64,000 nt of DNA from Desulfobacterales bacterium (lineage in GTDB: Bacteria; Desulfobacterota; Desulfobacteria; Desulfobacterales; JANQIE01). The stretch covers positions 1 through 64,000 of the forward strand of contig JANQIE010000178.1 in NCBI GenBank assembly GCA_028282295.1. Direction: 5' to 3'. A model generated the notes under the pieces. It did not search any database and was not told where the DNA came from. It saw only the letters and a program-made list of their open reading frames with translations. The position numbers and the translations under genes are program-made. Every line of letters begins with the position of its first letter. The stretch's first letter is position 1. Positions 46,881 to 62,162 of the stretch are shown here, piece by piece.

Positions 46881-46983
46881 ATGGTTTGTTTTAATCAAAA
46901 AAGCTGCGTTGTCTTGCACTCGTTTTGCCCCCTGACACTACTTAGTTAGCTGAAGTTATTGGGCTGAAGCTATTAGGGGTAAG

Positions 46984-47006
46984 TGGCGGAGAGGGTGGGA
47001 TTCGAA
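46984..47006 (-). other. Left attachment site (tRNA-Ser 3' fragment)
   Basis: These 23 bp read on the minus strand as the 3' end of a tRNA-Ser (TTCGAATCCCACCCTCTCCG then CCA) and stop abruptly inside the T arm. The upstream part is phage sequence. Same orientation as the intact tRNA-Ser at 46788 but a different acceptor and T-stem, so a second Ser tRNA gene was the target. Inverted GGGTGGG (46993) and CCCACCC (47013) flank the likely crossover. Confidence 0.82.
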
Positions 47007-47154: not shown

Positions 47155-48282
47155 TTAGCTATCAAATCCGTTTCCTTTGACAGCTTTTAAATCTCCAAAC
47201 CGTCTCACATTATCGACCACGGATCGCAATACCCGCATGGACGGGTTGGCGTAGTGTTTTTTGGTAATCGCAGTGTTGGAATGGCCCAACAGGGCCGCAA
47301 TGGTGTCCATGTCGTAACCGGCTTCAGCCATCTGGCTGCCAAGACTATGTCGGCCGGCGTTGTTCAAGGGAAAAACGTAACCCAGGACTGCGATACTGGC
47401 CGGATTCCAGAAATCACGATTGATGTTCTTGGTGTACGTACGACCGGTGCGCGAATTGACAAAAACAAACTCGGACACGTACCGCGGGCAGTTTTCCAAG
47501 ATCCATTGTACACCCTCGGTGATGGGAAAACGTCGCTCACGCTTGGATTTCACTTCCTTGAGCTTTTCACCTTTACCGAATGTCTTTTTAAACACAATAT
47601 AGCCGTGCGATGATTTGATATCCTGCTTGCGAAAGGCCCGTGCTTCGGACGGACGACAGCCCGTAGCCATAATAAAGGTAAAAATCCAGCGGTCGATCGA
47701 CGGGATCTTGGCTAAAATTTTCTGTTGGGTTTCCAGGTCAATCCACTCGATGTCTTTTTGCACCACTTCGTTTTGACCTTTAAACTCGACCCACTCGGGC
47801 AACTGACTGATATGGCCCGCTTTGCGGGAATCGACCATCAGGCGGTGCAGGCAGCCCATGACGTTCTTCTTGCCCTTGGGCTCACGTTTAATGGTATTGA
47901 GCAAACGCTTTAAATCCTCATGGCCGATATCCGGCAAAAACATATCCCCCAACACCGGCAGGATATGGTTATTGATACTGTTGGTATAGTCGCTGTGGGT
48001 TGAGTCGGCGATCTCAACCTTAATTTCCTGCAACCATTTTCGGGAATATTCTCTTAATTGCAGGGGCGGCTTGCGTTTGTAACGTTCCGGATTGAAACAG
48101 CCCTTTTGAATGTCGTTGTTTATCTGCCCTTTCAACATCTCGGCCATACGATGGGTTGTGCATGTTACCGGCCCGTTCATGGTCAACAACTGACTGATCT
48201 GGACCCGCCGTCCCTGCCACTTGCCCTTTACCGCCCAAGAACCGCGCGCCTTAACAAAAACCACCTTCCCCCAATCAGACAT
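47155..48282 (-). CDS. int: Phage tyrosine integrase
   Basis: 375 residues from ATG 48282, preceded by GGAGG (upstream in-frame ATGs lack one). N-terminal arm-binding region, SAM-like core-binding domain (about 80-170) and catalytic domain with Arg in TGCRPSEARAF, AGRHSLGS, and GHSNTAITKKHYA (His and nucleophile Tyr). The residue before the second box is Asn where many integrases have His. It catalyses integration at the adjacent tRNA-Ser site. Confidence 0.93.
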   Translation of the reverse strand: MSDWGKVVFVKARGSWAVKGKWQGRRVQISQLLTMNGPVTCTTHRMAEMLKGQINNDIQKGCFNPERYKRKPPLQLREYSRKWLQEIKVEIADSTHSDYTNSINNHILPVLGDMFLPDIGHEDLKRLLNTIKREPKGKKNVMGCLHRLMVDSRKAGHISQLPEWVEFKGQNEVVQKDIEWIDLETQQKILAKIPSIDRWIFTFIMATGCRPSEARAFRKQDIKSSHGYIVFKKTFGKGEKLKEVKSKRERRFPITEGVQWILENCPRYVSEFVFVNSRTGRTYTKNINRDFWNPASIAVLGYVFPLNNAGRHSLGSQMAEAGYDMDTIAALLGHSNTAITKKHYANPSMRVLRSVVDNVRRFGDLKAVKGNGFDS

Positions 48283-48376
48283 TACGACACCTCCATCTTG
48301 ATCAAATTTGACCGGTATCGTATCCATCATGGTAAGGTGATTCAACATAAATTGTATTTACAATAAATTCAAAAGG

Positions 48377-49451: not shown

Positions 49452-49656
49452 TCGCACCCTTTCTTTTTCTTTTAAACAGCCGATCCGCCAGCCATCGAGG
49501 CATCGCCATGCGACCATTAAACAGTTGCACCTGACTGCGCGGAACATAAGGTGTGCTGCCATCGGGAAACTGCACCTGAATCGATTTCTCCCGCCCGGTG
49601 TCCAGGAGGGCCACGATCGGCACCACCACTGTTTCAAGATGAGTTCTATCGCGCAT
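49435..49656 (-). CDS. Small prophage protein with PRSQV motif (73 aa)
   Basis: ATG 49656 has GGAG at good spacing. VQFPDGSTPYVPRSQVQLF and MPRWLADRLFKRKRK parallel the protein at 48875-49060. Basic C-terminus. Overlaps the radical SAM gene end by 11 bp. Confidence 0.62.
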   Translation of the reverse strand: MRDRTHLETVVVPIVALLDTGREKSIQVQFPDGSTPYVPRSQVQLFNGRMAMPRWLADRLFKRKRKGANVNDH

Positions 49657-50410
49657 GTCCGTCTCCATTCGCATACGCCGCCAAACTTTTCTTCAGCCGG
49701 TAGCGGCAACCCCGGCCCCGCAACAAACTTTCAACCTGAGCCACAAACCGGGGCCAATCGACCGTCTTTTCAATTTCCGGGTGATGGTTGAGCTTGCCGA
49801 TCCACCAAAAATCGACCACCCCCCGGCACAACCCGATCAACGTCAACGCTTCCTGCGGATCGATCACCGGCTCCAGGCTGACCCAGGTCGGAATGCCCAT
49901 ACCGTGCGCAACACTCAATACCTCCAACCGGTCGTCCACACTATCGCCGTTGACCTCCCACTTGCGGCGGGTCAGTTCGTTGAAAAACGACAGGCTCACA
50001 CCAAAGCGCGCACGACCGTAGCCACGCAGCAAATCAAAATCGCGGCGGGCCAAATTTGTCCCTTTGGTTAAAATTGTGAACGGCAATTTATAGCGGATTA
50101 AAATTTGAATGGCCCGGCGGGTCAACTTCAACTCTGCTTCCTGTGGTTGGTAGACATCGCCGCGAAACGACATGAGAATTTCCGGCGGCGATTTGGTGGC
50201 CGCCAGTTTGCGGGCATCGCGTTCCAGCCGGGCCAACACGTCTGGCGTCGGTTGGGCATCCAAATAATAGTTTTCCGGATTCGTCCACGGCATGGTCACG
50301 TTGTAGCAATACCGGCAAAAATGAGTACAACCGTTGTACAAATTCAATCCAAGCGCGGCATATTCCGCCGCTGGGCCTTGCGGTGCGTAGATAATCGGTG
50401 CCTGACTCAT
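49646..50410 (-). CDS. Prophage radical SAM protein
   Basis: 254 residues with the radical SAM cluster motif CTHFCRYCYN (28-37), then GDVYQPQEAELKLTRRAI and LPFTILTKGT, a layout shared with spore-photoproduct-lyase-like and related phage radical SAM proteins. It binds a [4Fe-4S] cluster and SAM; the substrate is unknown and could be nucleic acid. GAGGGG upstream. Embedded among small phage genes. Confidence 0.82.
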   Translation of the reverse strand: MSQAPIIYAPQGPAAEYAALGLNLYNGCTHFCRYCYNVTMPWTNPENYYLDAQPTPDVLARLERDARKLAATKSPPEILMSFRGDVYQPQEAELKLTRRAIQILIRYKLPFTILTKGTNLARRDFDLLRGYGRARFGVSLSFFNELTRRKWEVNGDSVDDRLEVLSVAHGMGIPTWVSLEPVIDPQEALTLIGLCRGVVDFWWIGKLNHHPEIEKTVDWPRFVAQVESLLRGRGCRYRLKKSLAAYANGDGHAR

Positions 50411-51492: not shown

Positions 51493-51856
51493 AGGCTTTT
51501 TCTACATTTCCAACCGCCTTGGCAATCGCTTTGCGCAGGACACTATAAACCTCAAGTTCATGTACATCCTCCTGAAAGGATGTTTCGATGAACAACATTG
51601 CTTTGTGGGCCGCTTCCAAAAGACATGGAGCGCTGGCGATCAGAGCCACATCAGCTTTCGAATCAAAGCCAAAACAATCAGCACCACCATCAAGGTGTGG
51701 GTCTGCCCGGTGATTTCCGCGCACAACTTCTCCGACCAACACACGCCCATTGACGTGTCTTGATTCATAATGTTTCGGCCCATATATGTGATGTCCGCTG
51801 GCCTGCCACGGCCCAGGAGTGTGGTTACTAGCCAGGATGGATTTGCCTTCGTTCAT
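51485..51856 (-). CDS. Phage protein of the HTPGPW type
   Basis: 123 residues with HTPGPWQASGHHIYG near the N-terminus and ADVALIASAPCLLEAAHKAM in the second half. This pairing is common in small phage and prophage proteins of unknown role, supporting the prophage call. Confidence 0.75.
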   Translation of the reverse strand: MNEGKSILASNHTPGPWQASGHHIYGPKHYESRHVNGRVLVGEVVRGNHRADPHLDGGADCFGFDSKADVALIASAPCLLEAAHKAMLFIETSFQEDVHELEVYSVLRKAIAKAVGNVEKAYD

Positions 51857-54439: not shown

Positions 54440-55105
54440 ATGAATTACAGACAAATAATTGACAGATTCAAAAAAAAATCGGGATTGACACAGAGGGCTA
54501 TTGCAAGACAAATATTTGGAATTACTGATTCTAATCTCAGCAATAGAATCAAACGTGGCACGGTCGATATTTCACCCATAGTTAATTGGGCAAAACAAAA
54601 AAACGTCGATTTAAATTGGTTGCTTACCGGGGACACACGACAGGAGACAGCACCCGCAGACGAGGATTTTTTCCACCCCGAACACGCCAAGAAGCTCGCC
54701 CGCAACTTGGTACTGGTACGCAAGGCCCTGGGGGATCTCTCCCAGAAAGAAATGGCCCGCAAACTGGCCTTGCGGCCCGAGGTCTACCGGCAGTACGAAG
54801 CGGCCGAGCGGGAATTCCCGCCGCGCCTGATTCATATTTTGTTTTCGCATTTCAATATCAATGCGGTCTGGTGGGAGACCGGCGCCGGTGAGGTGATCTA
54901 CCGGCCAAAGCCGGACCCGGTCCTGATGATGAAGATCGTCGACAGCGTGAATGACCGCCTGACGGTCGAACTGAGCACCGACAACAAGGAAGCGTTGGTG
55001 TCGCGCATCTATGAATATCTGGTTTTACTTGGCGACCAGTCACCGAAGGTTCTCGAAGACGTGGTGATGGATTTTATAAAAATCGTGCAGGATGATGCAG
55101 GCTAA
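54440..55105 (+). CDS. CI-like prophage repressor with two HTH segments
   Basis: 221 residues. N-terminal CI-type HTH (LTQRAIARQIFGITDSNLS), a linker, then a second XRE-like HTH (about 75-130: LSQKEMARKLALRPEVYRQYE) and a helical C-terminal region. There is no S24 peptidase domain, so induction by RecA-stimulated self-cleavage is not expected. Divergent from the Cro-like gene. Confidence 0.82.
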   Translation: MNYRQIIDRFKKKSGLTQRAIARQIFGITDSNLSNRIKRGTVDISPIVNWAKQKNVDLNWLLTGDTRQETAPADEDFFHPEHAKKLARNLVLVRKALGDLSQKEMARKLALRPEVYRQYEAAEREFPPRLIHILFSHFNINAVWWETGAGEVIYRPKPDPVLMMKIVDSVNDRLTVELSTDNKEALVSRIYEYLVLLGDQSPKVLEDVVMDFIKIVQDDAG

Positions 55106-55517: not shown

Positions 55518-56057
55518 ATGAAAACATATGGGTTTATTGCGGGCTTGATCTTGTTTTGCATCTGCGGGGGTTATGCCACGCCGGCCGAACACTTTGATTT
55601 CCGGCGAACTCGCTGGGGCATGACCCAAATAGACGTGGCAACGGCCGAGCCATCAGAGCCATTACTTGTCGGTAAACACTTATTGGCATACGAGATCGAC
55701 CTGATGGGTCATAATACGAATTTGACCTACCATTTTCCACAGGGTTTACTATTCGAAGCAATGTACGTAACGAATAACTTATCGACGGAGAAGTATATCA
55801 AACATCTCAACAACATAAAACAAACACTTACCGATAAATACGGCAAACCGTCGACTGAGAATTGGCCCTGTGACAGCATGAGCGCAAATAAAAAAAAGCT
55901 TGTCCAAGAAATCAGGCAGGGAAAGACAAGTTGTGCTTTAAAGTGGAAAACTCCGCGAACCAATATCTGCCTTTCAGCCTTCGGTGGGGACAATCAAGCT
56001 TATATAAGTATAAGCTATACCGCCCCAAAAAACAGTCAAAAATTAGATTCATTTTAA
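55518..56057 (+). CDS. Secreted protein of unknown function (179 aa)
   Basis: Signal peptide (MKTYGFIAGLILFCICGGYA), then FDFRRTRWGMTQIDVATAE, a pattern common in exported Desulfobacterota and related proteins. Two Cys in the mature part could form a disulfide. Six bp after the previous gene, so in the same lysogen-expressed unit. Confidence 0.7.
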   Translation: MKTYGFIAGLILFCICGGYATPAEHFDFRRTRWGMTQIDVATAEPSEPLLVGKHLLAYEIDLMGHNTNLTYHFPQGLLFEAMYVTNNLSTEKYIKHLNNIKQTLTDKYGKPSTENWPCDSMSANKKKLVQEIRQGKTSCALKWKTPRTNICLSAFGGDNQAYISISYTAPKNSQKLDSF

Positions 56058-56140: not shown

Positions 56141-56407
56141 ATGGACAACTACTCAGATTTTCTATTTGCCGCACCCGATTTTATCGGCGGGTTGAGCCGG
56201 GTTCTGGACATCGGCAGTTCGCAAAGCGTATATAATGATTCGCTTGACGCCGAATTGGCCGACGCCCGCGCCATGGCCCGCGATTGGCGTGCCACCGGGG
56301 CCGATGTCCGCAAGGCAATGGCGACCTACCAAAATTCAGTTACCACCAAAAACGCGGCCGCTAAAGCCATACCACATCCGGCGCCCCACCCACACGATGC
56401 CGAATAA
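56141..56407 (+). CDS. Small protein of DUF2335 module 1 (88 aa)
   Basis: Start taken at ATG 56141; an in-frame GTG at 56132 is possible. Contains FIGGLSRVLDIGSS and a helical ELADARAMARDWRATGADV, then a His/Pro tail. Same layout as the small gene at 60298 (VSGVLDLSG ... EAMRADAAKIHSDM). Its stop overlaps the start of the DUF2335 gene. Unknown function. Confidence 0.65.
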   Translation: MDNYSDFLFAAPDFIGGLSRVLDIGSSQSVYNDSLDAELADARAMARDWRATGADVRKAMATYQNSVTTKNAAAKAIPHPAPHPHDAE

Positions 56408-56840
56408 AAAATCGAAGCAAAAACAAAATAAGCGGCAACCTGTTACCCAACACACCCAAATGGTGGCACAGGCCCGTTATACCCATTCAGGCCCGTTGCC
56501 AGCCCCCGAGCAATTGGCGCAATACAACGCCATCGCACCGGATGCCGCCGAACGGATTATTCAAATGGCGGTGGACCAAGCCAATCATCGCCGGGAATTG
56601 GAAAAAGTCGTCATCAAGGCCGGTGCGCGGGACTCGCTTCTGGGCCTGGTTTTCGGTTTTATCATCGGCCTTTCCGGCATGGCGGGCAGTGTTTACTGTA
56701 TTGCCAAGGGGTATCAACTGGGTGGCGGGGCCATCGGTGTCGGTTCCCTGGCCGGGCTGGTCGGCGTATTTGTCTATGGCAGCCGCCAAAAGCGCCAGGA
56801 GCGCGAGTTCAAGTACCGCGCCGATATTCAAAACCGGTAA
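56397..56840 (+). CDS. DUF2335 membrane protein, copy 1
   Basis: 147 residues from ATG 56397. Basic N-terminus, a helical segment (PDAAERIIQMAVDQANHRRELE), two membrane helices (about 84-103 and 108-127: GLVFGFIIGLSGMAGSVY) and a basic tail. Matches the DUF2335 family of predicted membrane proteins. Function unknown. Confidence 0.78.
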   Translation: MPNKKSKQKQNKRQPVTQHTQMVAQARYTHSGPLPAPEQLAQYNAIAPDAAERIIQMAVDQANHRRELEKVVIKAGARDSLLGLVFGFIIGLSGMAGSVYCIAKGYQLGGGAIGVGSLAGLVGVFVYGSRQKRQEREFKYRADIQNR

Positions 56841-56853
56841 TCCTTCTACTGTT

Positions 56854-57336
56854 TTAAAATCCACCAGCGCGGCGTAGCGCCCCGATCCCGGCCGCCCGCA
56901 TTGAATTGGAATCGTGCAGCACGATCCGCCGTTGATAGTCGCTGCGTATCTGCAAGGGCGGTTCGGGGAGCGGTTGGCCTGCCAGGGCGGCTCTGACCGC
57001 CTGGATCAGGTAATCGATATCGAAATTTTTGCATATGTAGCCATAGGCCCCGGCGCGCAGCGCCCGGCGGGTATAAAGGTGCTGATCCGCGCCCGATAAT
57101 ATAACAATGGTGCCGCACAGCGGCAATAACTGCGTGAGCAACTGCATCCCGGTCGTGCCCGGCAACACCAGATCGAGCAGAATCAAATCGTATTTTTGCC
57201 CCTCAGCCAACGCCAACGCCCGCGCCGCCGTACCGGCACGGTCAACCACATCAAACCCATCTTCATACTCAAAAATCGTCGGCACTGAATCGATAATTCC
57301 CTGATCATCATCCACGCATAAAATCCGGTAACCCAT
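56854..57336 (-). CDS. Stand-alone receiver (response regulator) protein
   Basis: 160 residues with AAGGGGG before ATG. Receiver domain 3-120: acidic D10-D11, phospho-Asp55 in ILLDLVLPG, Ser in VILSGA and Lys in YICKN. The rest is a short basic tail, so no classic output domain. A receiver in a prophage is unusual. It lies downstream of the LytTR receptor in the same orientation. Confidence 0.85.
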   Translation of the reverse strand: MGYRILCVDDDQGIIDSVPTIFEYEDGFDVVDRAGTAARALALAEGQKYDLILLDLVLPGTTGMQLLTQLLPLCGTIVILSGADQHLYTRRALRAGAYGYICKNFDIDYLIQAVRAALAGQPLPEPPLQIRSDYQRRIVLHDSNSMRAAGIGALRRAGGF

Positions 57337-57573
57337 TCGTCCCCCTTCACGATGAAGTTGAAATTCATGAGTTTTTTTAGCAACTTATCATCTGCCAAAA
57401 AACAGCCGGCGGGCGCTGAAAAATGAACGGCATTCAGCGAATTTGTGATTATCAAATTTTTCAGGGGGTTAGCGCCCGGCTGACCGCCAACTTTATCGCC
57501 AGTGGTCGACCAAACCATTCATTGTAACAACCGGCAGCATATGCCGGTCATTCCAATGAATGGCATTTGGTAA
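57337..57573. other. Spacer between receiver and LytTR genes with inverted repeats
   Basis: Contains a long imperfect inverted repeat (about 57400-57482, outer arms CAGCCGG / CCGGCTG with inner GGGCGCT / AGCGCCC) and smaller ATGCCGG/ATGCCA repeats near 57540-57570. It could hold a separate promoter or operator for the receiver gene. Confidence 0.5.
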
Positions 57574-59235
57574 TCATTCAAACAGGTTGGGATATTTTTT
57601 GCGGATGGGTACCACTCTGTGGCGGGACACGGGGATACGGTAGCGGGTGTCGGTGAAAACGATCTCGAAATTGCTGTTTCTGGTCCGAACAATTTTTTCA
57701 ATCGCACGCAAATTGGCTAAATATGATTTGTGCACCCGGATGAATTGTGTATCACGTATTCTGGTAGGAATATCCTTGAGCAACATCTCCAGATCGATTG
57801 TTTTGGATCGCAATACACGCAGATGGCAATGATGGCCGTTGGACTTGATGTAGACGATCCGCTCCAGATTCGCCACAATTTTGCCGACCTCCAGGTTGCA
57901 GCCCTCCAACAGGCCCGCTAATTGGACATTCGATTTTTCCAGTTCCGCTTTTGATTTTTCGAGATCGGCGTTGGTTTGTTCAAGCCTATCGTTCGATTTT
58001 TCAAGTTCGGCATTAGCTTCTTCAAGTTCGTCGGACAGTATTTCTTTTCGGCTCAATGTAATTGCAAAACGGCGGCCCATAAAAACAAATTGCCAAATGA
58101 CGAAAAACAGAATTCCGATTGGAATCAATCGGCCGGTCTGAATAATCCGCGCCGAGTGTAATGTGTCGTTGATAATCGTAACGAAAAAGGCAAAACAGGG
58201 CACGGCTTGCGCAAGCGCCCCGGGGCGCTTATTCTTCAGAGCCTTCCCCAATATGAACAGCGAATACAATGTAGCACCAGCCAGCAACAAATAGGATGTC
58301 GCAACTGTTTTCATGTGCACACGCGCGTTGGTCACAAGTATTATGAGCGCAATGATACTTGTGCAGATAAAAAGACCTCTAACGACTATCCCCTTTGTAT
58401 CCTGCGGGAAAAGTTCCCGGAGGTAAAATAGATACAATATAGCCATGTAAAGGAACGTGAAGTAGATAATTTTAACATGAATTTCCCAATCCAAATTTGG
58501 GAACAATTGTATATGTGCCTTTTCAATCAGTAAAAGGACGTATAGTCCGAACGAAAGGCAAAATAGCGCAAAAAACAGTGTCGATTTACCTTTGCGATAT
58601 CCATAAAGCGTGAAATTGAAGAGGGCCGTTATCAAAAACGAACTGATAATGAAAAAATTGATTGTTTTCAGAAATGAGTTATGGTGGGTGATGTTGTCCC
58701 CGCGACCCAATTTAATCGGATTTAGTATGCCACTTTGAAAATGACGAAAATTGCTTACCTGGATGACAATTTCAATCTGGCCCGACTCGGCAGGGAAATA
58801 GATGTTTGTACTCAGATATTGCGGAATTGCTGTTTCATAGCTCTTGCCGGGGCGACCAACAGTGTGCTTTTTTTCCCCATTAACCCAAAATTGATATGCT
58901 GTTTCGATTTTATTGCACGATAGTCCGTAGCTATCGTGCGGCGGCACCTTCACAACCGCCCTGTAAGTAGCGCAACCGGTTGCGGACCCGAACCTTCTCC
59001 ATGCCATTGGCACTTTTGCAAATTCAGGTTTAAGCATTTTTTTGAAATCTGAGGGCGTCAGTAATTGCCCCCAATAGAATTCCCACTCGCCATTTAATTC
59101 AACAATATGGGAATGAAAATCCCATTTACCAAGATCGACGCGCCCTGCGCGCAATTTGGGGCTTTCTTTTGTGCATCCGAGCAGTGTCAGCGCAATGAAC
59201 AAAAAAACAATGACGGTCTTGTGAGCTTTCGGCAT
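57574..59235 (-). CDS. 7TM-DISM receptor fused to LytTR DNA-binding domain
   Basis: 553 residues from ATG 59235, which opens a lipoprotein-like signal with LTLLGC (Cys21). Then a jelly-roll sensor (about 30-190: WEFYWGQLLTPSDF, FWVNGEKKHTVG), seven membrane segments (about 195-385), a coiled coil of ELEKSN-type repeats (about 400-445), and a C-terminal LytTR domain (about 450-550: ERIVYIKSNGHHCHLRV, IRVHKSYLANL). It would sense an external ligand and bind DNA from the membrane. No kinase domain. The start overlaps the acyltransferase stop region. Confidence 0.9.
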   Translation of the reverse strand: MPKAHKTVIVFLFIALTLLGCTKESPKLRAGRVDLGKWDFHSHIVELNGEWEFYWGQLLTPSDFKKMLKPEFAKVPMAWRRFGSATGCATYRAVVKVPPHDSYGLSCNKIETAYQFWVNGEKKHTVGRPGKSYETAIPQYLSTNIYFPAESGQIEIVIQVSNFRHFQSGILNPIKLGRGDNITHHNSFLKTINFFIISSFLITALFNFTLYGYRKGKSTLFFALFCLSFGLYVLLLIEKAHIQLFPNLDWEIHVKIIYFTFLYMAILYLFYLRELFPQDTKGIVVRGLFICTSIIALIILVTNARVHMKTVATSYLLLAGATLYSLFILGKALKNKRPGALAQAVPCFAFFVTIINDTLHSARIIQTGRLIPIGILFFVIWQFVFMGRRFAITLSRKEILSDELEEANAELEKSNDRLEQTNADLEKSKAELEKSNVQLAGLLEGCNLEVGKIVANLERIVYIKSNGHHCHLRVLRSKTIDLEMLLKDIPTRIRDTQFIRVHKSYLANLRAIEKIVRTRNSNFEIVFTDTRYRIPVSRHRVVPIRKKYPNLFE

Positions 59236-59236
59236 A

Positions 59237-59869
59237 TCAGTTCGGCAATTCAACCAATCCGCTGTTATCAGGAGTGCTGAAATAGTCGTAAAGTTTATAG
59301 CGTCTGGCAATTCGACTCTCTTTATATCGGCGTACTAGACCGCAGAGATCCAATCGTAACGCAATCGATTTTTCGCAATATTGAGTTTTATGATCTCCCT
59401 TGATCTTTTCAAACCCGAAAATTTGTCTGTAGAATTTTTCATGATGGTCGGCGGCCATTGCAACCAGATCGTCAAAGCCTGATTGGTATGCAACCCTAAA
59501 AGAATATCGACAAAGATCCAAGGATAGATTCCGAGCATTTTGATATGCCGGAGCAATTGCTAACCGCCCCCCCTCCAACAACCGCCTTTTCCGCCGTCGC
59601 ATTTTGTTCAGTTCCGGGCCAAAGCCTTCGTCATCCATGGGCAGGCCCAAGTCCGAATCCTGAACCAACCTAACCGTTCCGGCGATCCGACCGTCAATTA
59701 GCGCAACGAATACACGAGCAAACCCGGATGTATCATAAATATCCCTCAACACCCCCGTTTCATTGGGCTGGATCAATCCAGCGGGTAAATACGCATTATA
59801 CCTGATTTTGTAAATTTGATCCAGTTCCTCCGGTTTGGCCGCGCGTAACTCGTAGTGATCCCTCGACAT
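59237..59869 (-). CDS. LuxI/FeeM-like N-acyltransferase (putative signal synthase)
   Basis: 210 residues. Residues R23, D43, D46 (RDIYD), R67 (GTVRL), E99 and R102 (EGGRLAI) fall almost exactly where LuxI has R24, D45, D48, R69, E97 and R100; then DHHEKFYRQIFGFEKI, as in the FeeM N-acyl amino acid synthase core. The LuxI Trp34 is absent, so FeeM-like acyl-amine synthesis is likelier than a homoserine lactone. AGGGGG upstream. First gene of the cassette; a near-palindrome lies just upstream. Confidence 0.85.
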   Translation of the reverse strand: MSRDHYELRAAKPEELDQIYKIRYNAYLPAGLIQPNETGVLRDIYDTSGFARVFVALIDGRIAGTVRLVQDSDLGLPMDDEGFGPELNKMRRRKRRLLEGGRLAIAPAYQNARNLSLDLCRYSFRVAYQSGFDDLVAMAADHHEKFYRQIFGFEKIKGDHKTQYCEKSIALRLDLCGLVRRYKESRIARRYKLYDYFSTPDNSGLVELPN

Positions 59870-59903
59870 ACAATCCCCCTATTCATGTACAGATTAGTGC
59901 ATT

Positions 59904-59926
59904 GTCGCGCCATATGATGGTGCGAC
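59904..59926. promoter_or_regulatory. Near-palindrome upstream of the acyltransferase gene
   Basis: GTCGCGCCAT-ATG-ATGGTGCGAC, 10-bp arms with one mismatch, 35-57 bp before the start. Position and symmetry fit an operator for autoregulation. The rest of 59870-60129 shows no ORF. Confidence 0.6.
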
Positions 59927-60129
59927 CCGTATAAAGCTATGAATAAAGGGGTATAAATAGAAAGGGCAAGGCGTTACGTGCGCCCGATCATTTCATTTAA
60001 TTACAAACAAAAAACCGCGCACTTGTTTTTTAAAAAATCTTACCATGCATTATAGGAAATGACAAAAATTTGCCGTTTTTCGCTCATGACCGGTTTTTGT
60101 CAATCATTTGAAACATATATCGATCCGAC

Positions 60130-60159
60130 TTGACAAAGAGAACTGGGCTTTTCTATAAT
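60130..60159 (+). promoter_or_regulatory. Near-consensus promoter before DUF2335 module 2
   Basis: TTGACA (60130-60135), 18-bp spacer, TATAAT (60154-60159), giving a leader of about 135 nt. Confidence 0.75.
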
Positions 60160-60223
60160 CGGCTCAAGATTTGTTGATGGCATGCCGATTGAACACTCAA
60201 CCGTAGCCTGTTCCCGTTGATTC

Positions 60224-60252
60224 TTGACATTCATTTGCAACAGTCATAATTT
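60224..60252 (+). promoter_or_regulatory. Second TTGACA promoter-like site before module 2
   Basis: TTGACA (60224-60229), 17-bp spacer, TAATTT (60247-60252); embedded in TCTTGACATTCA also found before module 1. Confidence 0.5.
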
Positions 60253-60297
60253 ATCATGCCGAACCAACCAATAGTTTACCGGAGCTTAAGGAGTATC

Positions 60298-60510
60298 ATG
60301 ATAGATACTATTAAAAACATGCTGGACGGCGTTTCAGGTGTGCTTGATCTTTCCGGTAGAGACCCGAGCCCTCCCATTGAATTCAATGTGCGCACGTATA
60401 CCTACCGCGGAGCGGTAAAAGAAGCCATGCGCGCCGACGCCGCCAAGATCCATTCCGACATGTGCAACGCTTTTCATCGCGTGGTGCCAACGGATGTCCA
60501 GAAAAAGTAA
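60298..60510 (+). CDS. Small protein of DUF2335 module 2 (70 aa)
   Basis: ATG 60298 with AAGGAG at good spacing (an ATG at 60256 lacks one). VSGVLDLSGRDPSP then EAMRADAAKIHSDMCNAFHRV, resembling the small protein of module 1. Overlaps the DUF2335 gene by 17 bp. Confidence 0.68.
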   Translation: MIDTIKNMLDGVSGVLDLSGRDPSPPIEFNVRTYTYRGAVKEAMRADAAKIHSDMCNAFHRVVPTDVQKK

Positions 60511-61126
60511 CAAATCCAAAAATCTACCCACCCCGACTAAAACCGATTCAGGCCGAAGAGAAACCATCCAGGAAACCCGCCATCATGAGCAGCAAGCGCT
60601 TGATTCCGGCGATTTGAAGCGCGCCATCGAATGTATCCCTGATGGCACACTGGCACCGGGCGTTAAGCGTCAGTTGCTCGACCAAATCGACGGCAATTCA
60701 TCCAGCACACATTTTAGAATCGAGCGACGCCAGGAAATGCAAGGCTTTCCAATACCGATGCCGCACACCCTGGCGGACTATGAAAAAATCGACAAGGACA
60801 TTGTGCCCCGTTTTCTCAAAGCATGGCAAAGCGAAGAGACAACGCGCCAACGGCTGGAGGATGTAAAACTCCAAGCACAAATCCATGTCGAAATGAAAAA
60901 GCACACCGAACGTATGCGGGGCATGTTTTTCGGTTTTTTAATCGGATTGGCAGGCATGTTTCTTTCCGGCTGGATGGTCTATTTGGGACACCCGACCCAG
61001 GCAACTATTTTTGGCAGCGGCACAATCGTCGCACTGGTGACGGTCTTTGTGACTCGCAAGCGGCCGGCTATCAAAGGAAAGTCAACGGGTGAAAAACCGA
61101 TCGAAGATCAACAGGGATTTGAGTGA
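60494..61126 (+). CDS. DUF2335 membrane protein, copy 2
   Basis: 210 residues: polar N-terminal region (1-70), PMPHTLADYEKIDKDIVPRFL, a helical segment, then two membrane helices (about 140-160 and 165-183: GMFFGFLIGLAGMFLSGWM) and a basic tail. Longer and diverged from copy 1 but with the same C-terminal block. Its end overlaps the XRE gene. Confidence 0.78.
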   Translation: MSRKSNKSKNLPTPTKTDSGRRETIQETRHHEQQALDSGDLKRAIECIPDGTLAPGVKRQLLDQIDGNSSSTHFRIERRQEMQGFPIPMPHTLADYEKIDKDIVPRFLKAWQSEETTRQRLEDVKLQAQIHVEMKKHTERMRGMFFGFLIGLAGMFLSGWMVYLGHPTQATIFGSGTIVALVTVFVTRKRPAIKGKSTGEKPIEDQQGFE

Positions 61127-61811: not shown

Positions 61812-62162
61812 TTACCCCTGCCAGCGCGCCTTTTCAGATCTGATATCGATGTGCGTCCAGTCGGCATAGCGCCCGATGCCGCAGCGATCCGGATAGCACT
61901 CTTCCAGATAATCGGCCACGACATCCGCAGCAACCTTTTTTACCACGATATCGGCGGCCTGGCCGCGCACATGCCGTGATTGCGCCACGCCGCCGATTGC
62001 GGCGTTATGCGCCGCACAGCGGCACCCGCTGGTGATCCATACCGGGGTGTTGAAGTGCCGGCGCACGGCCTCCAACACCCGCAGCAAGGCCGGATCGATT
62101 GCCGCAAAGCCGCACCCGCAGCGGCAGGCAAATTCTTCGGATTTAAAATAAACGGATTGCAT
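61812..62162 (-). CDS. M15 family peptidase, probable endolysin
   Basis: 116 residues with SGCRCAAHNAAIGG, SRHVRGQAADI and THIDIR, supplying the His-Asp-His zinc site of D-Ala-D-Ala carboxypeptidase-type peptidases. In this position (after a holin-like gene) it should cut host peptidoglycan at lysis. No signal peptide, so release depends on the holin. Confidence 0.87.
   Translation of the reverse strand: MQSVYFKSEEFACRCGCGFAAIDPALLRVLEAVRRHFNTPVWITSGCRCAAHNAAIGGVAQSRHVRGQAADIVVKKVAADVVADYLEECYPDRCGIGRYADWTHIDIRSEKARWQG

Follow-up and report, generated by a model that had tools for sequence, protein, structure and literature searches.

Acyl-signal quorum sensing with control of lysogeny has already been reported in phages, where prophage luxR-luxI operons set the lysogenic state (PMC13345283), and agr genes are carried by phage phiCDHM1 (PMC3901668). 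A LytTR regulator that is bound to the membrane and acts from there, HigX, has also been described (PMC13384398). Here, we analyzed a two-gene cassette in a prophage of a Desulfobacterales bacterium (GenBank assembly GCA_028282295.1). It lies in bases 1-64000 of the 84,842-base contig C196 (JANQIE010000178.1) of a 5.46-Mb draft genome; this 64,000-nucleotide (nt) stretch is called the window hereafter. The cassette combines a FeeM-family N-acyltransferase with a receptor in which a seven-transmembrane (7TM) sensor of the 7TM-DISM type is fused to a LytTR DNA-binding domain. Our leading, still tentative, interpretation is that a temperate phage, apparently complete, carries the two genes as a cargo (moron) operon and that they form a synthase-receptor lipid-signal loop. 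The further step, that it represents phage quorum sensing with a novel kind of signal and of receptor, a FeeM-type N-acyl lipid being read by a 7TM receptor that doubles as the transcription factor, appears rather unlikely to us. To our knowledge, no such phage communication system has been known in this bacterial order.

The first gene of the operon (59237-59869, minus strand), with its ATG at 59869, its stop at 59237 and a Shine-Dalgarno-like AGGGGG upstream, encodes a protein of 210 amino acids (aa). Enzymes of the FeeM family transfer an acyl group from acyl-acyl carrier protein (acyl-ACP) to an amine. The protein matched the Pfam family FeeM (PF21926) with 119 bits (cut-off 27, E-value 2.2e-34, profile positions 1-148 of 158). 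When a profile of seven relatives including the window protein (A1) was compared with PDB, FeeM (2g0b, E-value 4.6e-22) was the sole significant match, and the unrelated GNAT family against which a first-pass annotation of this DNA had warned did not appear; a PDB search with the single sequence gave no significant match to 2g0b. No segment of the A1 alignment is sufficiently conserved to scan a sequence collection with it. Autoind_synth (PF00765) did not match the protein at E-values up to 1, and a search for this family across the genome gave no match, as did the controls of that search. Thus, of the LuxI/FeeM-like identity proposed by the first-pass annotation, the FeeM part stood and the LuxI part did not.

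The R, DxxD, R and ExxR residues that form the LuxI pattern, also part of the first-pass annotation, are all present in the synthase (R23, D43xxD46, R67 and E99xxR102). All six occur in two of the 92 aligned FeeM-profile segments, namely the window protein and L077, and the main FeeM branch retains the Glu alone. Because short relatives of the exosortase type (L075 and L076) have nearly the same set, these residues are not specific to LuxI. In a maximum-likelihood tree, the synthase groups outside the main FeeM clade with a paralogue from the same genome (contig C61; support 100/95), in which Lys stands in place of R102; this placement is provisional because the branches are long. A single-sequence AlphaFold model of the synthase (mean predicted local distance difference test score, pLDDT, 34) was not used. 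Judged by these matches, 59237-59869 is a FeeM-type acyltransferase rather than a LuxI enzyme.

Some other FeeM-related genes deserve mention. The paralogue (L012:7952-8575 on G000:C61), the genome's second FeeM gene and sister of the prophage one, is flanked by a periplasmic-binding/lytic-transglycosylase-like gene and by Cache-like and MCP chemoreceptor genes. The acyltransferase at L077:1144-1968 (G734:C10), which contains the six residues and matches FeeM (52.7 bits), Acetyltransf_5 (50.3) and, just below the cut-off, Autoind_synth (22.7), is by its scores an intermediate between FeeM and LuxI. At L015:8117-9376 (G015:C44), next to a normal FeeM gene, a divergent FeeM-like acyltransferase appears by reading to be joined to a cyclic-nucleotide-binding domain, which suggests ligand-regulated acyltransferases.

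The second gene (57574-59235, minus strand) encodes a membrane-anchored one-component regulator of 553 aa. Both domains of the fusion described in the first-pass annotation were found by Pfam, 7TMR-DISM_7TM with 68 bits (cut-off 29, E-value 1.1e-18) and LytTR with 63 bits (cut-off 22.6, E-value 3e-17), the latter being the sole LytTR domain in the 5.46-Mb genome. By direct reading, the N-terminus is a lipobox-like signal (MPKAHKTVIVFLFIALTLLGC) with LLGC at residues 18-21. It is followed by an extracytoplasmic beta-sandwich (approximately residues 30-178), the 7TM-DISM bundle (approximately 180-395), a linking, heptad-repeat signalling helix (371-465), the heptads of which are encoded by a 21-nt DNA repeat, and the LytTR domain (approximately 454-546). 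In such receptors the signal passes through the coiled coil, and the LytTR dimer binds DNA. An AlphaFold2 model based on 52 GTDB relatives (mean pLDDT 82.7) is confident for the outer beta-sandwich, the helix bundle and the long helix. The outer region has no Pfam match to DISMED1 or DISMED2 and aligns with its counterpart in other 7TM-DISM proteins; a phmmer search of PDB with the receptor gave no match. In BFVD, a phage histidine kinase with a fold similar to the receptor was observed.

The two genes are separated by a single base (59236, minus strand), the true start of the receptor being the ATG at 59235 directly beyond it, and this arrangement is, as far as sequence can tell, one of translational coupling. 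They also have a common base composition, which differs from that of the adjacent receiver gene, the lysis genes and the compared host genes; two prophage genes, at 55518 and 52739, come similarly close to the pair. Directly 3' of the receptor stop lies a strong, long and nested hairpin (57511-57571, minus strand; -37.2 kcal/mol, z -6.0, no U-tract), which is the probable end of the operon. A dispersed repeat was rejected as an explanation of this hairpin, the genome elsewhere containing only partial matches to its arms. Beyond the hairpin is a lone receiver of 160 aa (56854-57336, minus strand; Response_reg E-value 4.1e-22; phrog_731) with an intact phospho-acceptor set, comprising an acidic pair near residue 9, the Asp of LLDL, the Ser of ILSGAD and the Lys of CKNFD. 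The three leftward genes of the first-pass annotation were therefore confirmed by their coordinates and Pfam matches, and the third is a real receiver, but it is probably a separate gene outside the operon. We left it out of the cassette because of the 237-nt gap to the receptor, the hairpin, its different composition (G+C content at third codon positions 0.65 vs 0.48 and 0.50 for the FeeM and receptor genes) and its own phage family.

The location within a prophage, also proposed by the first-pass annotation, was borne out. An integrase (47155-48348, minus strand; phrog_1, E-value 2.8e-40) adjoins a 24-nt left attachment (att) core (46983-47006). The same 24 nt form the 3' end of an intact tRNA-Ser(CGA) at the beginning of contig C44 and also terminate contig C301, where phage-type DNA methylases were recognized by reading the sequence. 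The right att lies at tRNA-Ser(CGA), the prophage being inserted in the tRNA-Ser gene, and the core copies on C196, C44 and C301 display the pattern expected of attL and attR. The cassette lies well inside the element, between the region of a CI-like repressor (54440-55105, plus strand; Phage_CI_repr E-value 3e-7; phrog_8) and the lysis genes, which include an M15-peptidase endolysin (61812-62162, minus strand; Pfam and phrog matches). To the right of the window are genes for a lambda-like host-specificity protein J, tail, tape measure and capsid, together with a protease and a portal by reading; 478 relatives of the capsid occur among viral contigs, the best being 62-66% identical. A GpA-type terminase was detected on contig C283, the end of which overlaps the end region of C196 by at least 55 nt. 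The presence of integrase, att sites, repressor, endolysin, tail, head and terminase indicates a near-complete lambda-like prophage.

Two diverged copies of a phage membrane protein of the moron category (phrog_3996) stand on either side of the cassette (56235-56840 and 60494-61126, both plus strand; 31% identity, E-value 1e-14), as if the slot had been born by duplication or insertion. Elsewhere in the prophage, a radical SAM protein of phrog_13321 (function unknown) is encoded in the left arm (49646-50410). A HigA-like antitoxin (by reading) and an AAA/DUF4143 ATPase are located between the portal/head-joining genes and the terminase (C196 82872-84842, L019:2872-4842). A defence-system reading was rejected, with no relevant match in PADLOC.

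Upstream of the cassette is a 386-nt divergent promoter region (59870-60255) with promoter-like sites identified by sequence. A weaker, leftward site directed toward the cassette (60065-60037) reads TTGTCA-17-TAAGAT with TG before the second hexamer, and a rightward sigma-70 promoter (60130-60159) has a perfect 12/12 match, TTGACA-18-TATAAT, and is predicted to drive the phage genes to the right. Promoter-like sites are in total no more frequent than expected by chance, and thus only the perfect match stands out.

For the receptor and pair searches, we used 390 genomes sampled from the order and 326 sampled from the phylum (about 700 phylum genomes). FeeM-family genes are common, being found in about one fifth of the order genomes and one sixth of the phylum sample. 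LytTR was located within 5 kb of FeeM in one of the 79 other FeeM-positive genomes, in a different arrangement. This candidate pair, on G262:C580, was set aside since its make-up is not that of the window: the FeeM is long, an unrelated TPR-like gene is also present, and the LytTR belongs to a response regulator accompanied by its histidine kinase. No other direct 7TM-DISM-LytTR fusion was detected in these samples, and among the best 80 7TM-DISM receptors listed from GTDB, scanned via one motif, none had an in-frame LytTR or a FeeM within 6 kb. Single-protein scans of IMG/VR and GTDB gave no close relatives of the FeeM protein, nor did phage and plasmid records. Likewise, neither FeeM nor LytTR was present in 85 related viral loci, of which those based on the capsid mostly stop short of the slot, and five loci located via the endolysin had unrelated contents. 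The neighborhood search suggested by the first-pass annotation thus gave no second FeeM-like gene beside a 7TM-DISM-LytTR gene in the genomes and collections searched, and its other caution, that the pair might be a common chromosomal locus, was dispelled, the pair being unseen on any chromosome searched. As the genomes are samples from which close relatives of the window genome were perhaps left out, and the GTDB scan used one motif, absence is not proven; as it stands, the pair has no comparative support for being a module.

Related sensors were observed on other mobile elements. Two loci of the same order, L110:4683-7775 (G376:C315) and L111:6115-9291 (G358:C2), encode 7TM-DISM-HisKA-REC-LytTR hybrids of about 1,030-1,060 aa by conjugation-type genes (VirB4/VirB11-like by reading), and in L110 an alpha/beta-hydrolase-like gene is directly upstream of the hybrid regulator. 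They are possible signal-regulated transfer modules, and their position implies that the combination of sensor and output seems to travel on mobile elements. In addition, 7TM-DISM receptors occur in other phage-like records, in an IMG/VR contig shortly after lysis-type genes (L120:5908-7293) and in MT835489.1 (47859-48935).

In the proposed loop, the enzyme would take a fatty acyl chain from acyl-ACP and attach it to an amine, that of an amino acid or a related compound, and the amphipathic product would build up within or outside the membrane. The receptor would sense this product via its 7TM bundle or its outer domain and relay the change through the coiled coil to the LytTR dimer, and the dimer would act on 59870-60255 and thereby on its own operon and the neighboring phage membrane-protein gene. 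The outcome would be an autoregulated lipid-signal loop resembling LuxI/LuxR but with a membrane receptor, by which lysogen density or envelope state is conveyed to the prophage. That the enzyme product is the ligand of the receptor, and prophage promoters its target, is what we infer. What speaks most for the loop is that the two genes are tightly paired and matched in composition within a phage, an arrangement comparable to prophage luxR-luxI operons. Also in its favor are the FeeM identity of the enzyme, the six LuxI-type charged residues, the LytTR domain being the only one in the genome, the near-complete prophage around the pair, and the phage and HigX precedents. Human WLS, which we take to be a lipid-binding 7TM protein, is the only non-glycosidase among the PDB matches listed for the receptor model (E-value 1.6e-4, TM-score 0.26) and could serve as a weak hint of lipid sensing.

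Several observations weigh against such a loop, and the strongest counter-argument is the sugar-type outer domain together with the lack of recurrence of the pair in about 700 phylum genomes, the best 80 GTDB receptors, IMG/VR, and phage and plasmid records. By Foldseek, the outer domain resembles the N-terminal jelly-roll of GH2 beta-glucuronidases (E-value 3.1e-7), a fold that indicates a sugar as much as a lipid, and carbohydrate binding has been predicted for 7TM-DISM outer domains (PMC6107284). Moreover, the products of FeeM-type enzymes are mostly described as surface-active or antimicrobial in the papers found (PMC4897644, PMC8762209). The LytTR part of the AlphaFold2 model mostly has pLDDT below 50, and a search for LytTR-type direct repeats gave none in 59870-60255 or near the phage repressor; over the window's part of the prophage, the search gave one weak repeat pair, at 51848. 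The outer fold, the predicted carbohydrate binding and the surfactant and antimicrobial products all agree with an alternative that we consider nearly as likely as the loop, namely an enzyme with an envelope-sensing regulator and no signal loop. Here, a carbohydrate, wall fragment or membrane stress sensed via the GH2-like domain would switch on the acyltransferase, and an aminolipid or surfactant would alter the lysogen surface, with effects on superinfection exclusion or competitiveness. The flanking phrog_3996 moron-category membrane proteins would also fit. However, beta-sandwich folds do not fix the ligand, and a dedicated transmembrane regulator would be unusual for a single moron enzyme.

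The two genes may also be chance neighbors, bacterial genes of unrelated function that entered a cargo slot jointly or one by one, and the targets of the LytTR regulator would then be host genes. The space between the duplicated phrog_3996 genes does resemble such a slot, the pair is not conserved, and 7TM-DISM receptors stand alone in the other phage-like records; nevertheless, one-base coupling, shared composition, two intact frames and retained signature residues make this improbable. A three-part system with the receiver as phospho-relay partner is much less probable still. The receiver is adjacent, on the same strand and intact in its phospho-acceptor residues, but the cassette has no histidine kinase, the 237-nt gap holds the -37 kcal/mol hairpin, and the receiver differs in composition and belongs to its own phage family, phrog_731. 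Finally, a true LuxI-type homoserine lactone synthase, for which the six charged residues might speak, is hardly credible given 119 bits to FeeM, no Autoind_synth match in the protein at E-values up to 1 or in the genome, and nearly the same residues in the exosortase-type relatives L075 and L076. We retain the synthase-receptor loop as a tentative first choice.

N-acyl amino acids of FeeM-type enzymes may be signals, surfactants or antibiotics, and few 7TM-DISM receptors have a known ligand. Both matters become testable with a pair in which synthase and receptor are coupled and the output binds DNA directly. If the loop is true, membrane-sensed lipids would join peptides and homoserine lactones as means of phage communication, and the prophage would gain a one-protein route from an outside signal to a promoter. 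The novelty claimed by the first-pass annotation holds for the parts, the list of FeeM plus 7TM-DISM-LytTR not being known, but not for the principle, since phage acyl signaling was reported earlier for LuxI/LuxR (PMC13345283).

Compared with known systems, the synthase shares with FeeM (PF21926, PDB 2G0B) the fold family by profile, the catalytic-region Glu and the short single-domain form. FeeM lacks the LuxI-type R/DxxD/R/ExxR set and has Gln97 where the window synthase has R102 (PMC9654057, Table 1), whereas the window synthase is on a separate, well-supported branch with its own-genome paralogue, is prophage-borne and has a regulator coupled to it. Like the 7TMR-DISM receptors RetS, LadS and RgsP, the receptor has a 7TM-DISM bundle, an outer beta-sandwich and a coiled-coil output helix, but their outputs are kinase, GGDEF or EAL domains and its output is directly the DNA-binding LytTR. 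With HigX of Caulobacter and the LytTR regulatory systems it has in common a LytTR held at or acting from the membrane; those have four transmembrane helices without an outer domain, or a separate membrane inhibitor, and the window protein is a fused sensor with an outer domain. The layout of a LytTR regulatory system, in which a separate LytTR gene is followed by a membrane inhibitor gene, is not seen, the window having one fused protein. The L110 and L111 hybrids share the sensor type and the DNA-binding output and apparently belong to mobile elements within this order, but have a kinase and a receiver in between and no FeeM beside them. The agr genes of phiCDHM1 (PMC3901668) are likewise phage-carried genes for signal synthesis and a membrane sensor, with a peptide signal and a histidine kinase instead. 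A further comparison is with the prophage LuxI/LuxR modules of Roseobacter phages (PMC13345283), in which, as in the window, a candidate acyltransferase signal synthase stands beside a transcriptional receptor in a prophage. The window pair, which is known from genes alone and, as far as seen, is not recurrent among related phages, differs from them in having FeeM as the putative synthase and, in place of the cytoplasmic LuxR, a 7TM membrane receptor with LytTR.

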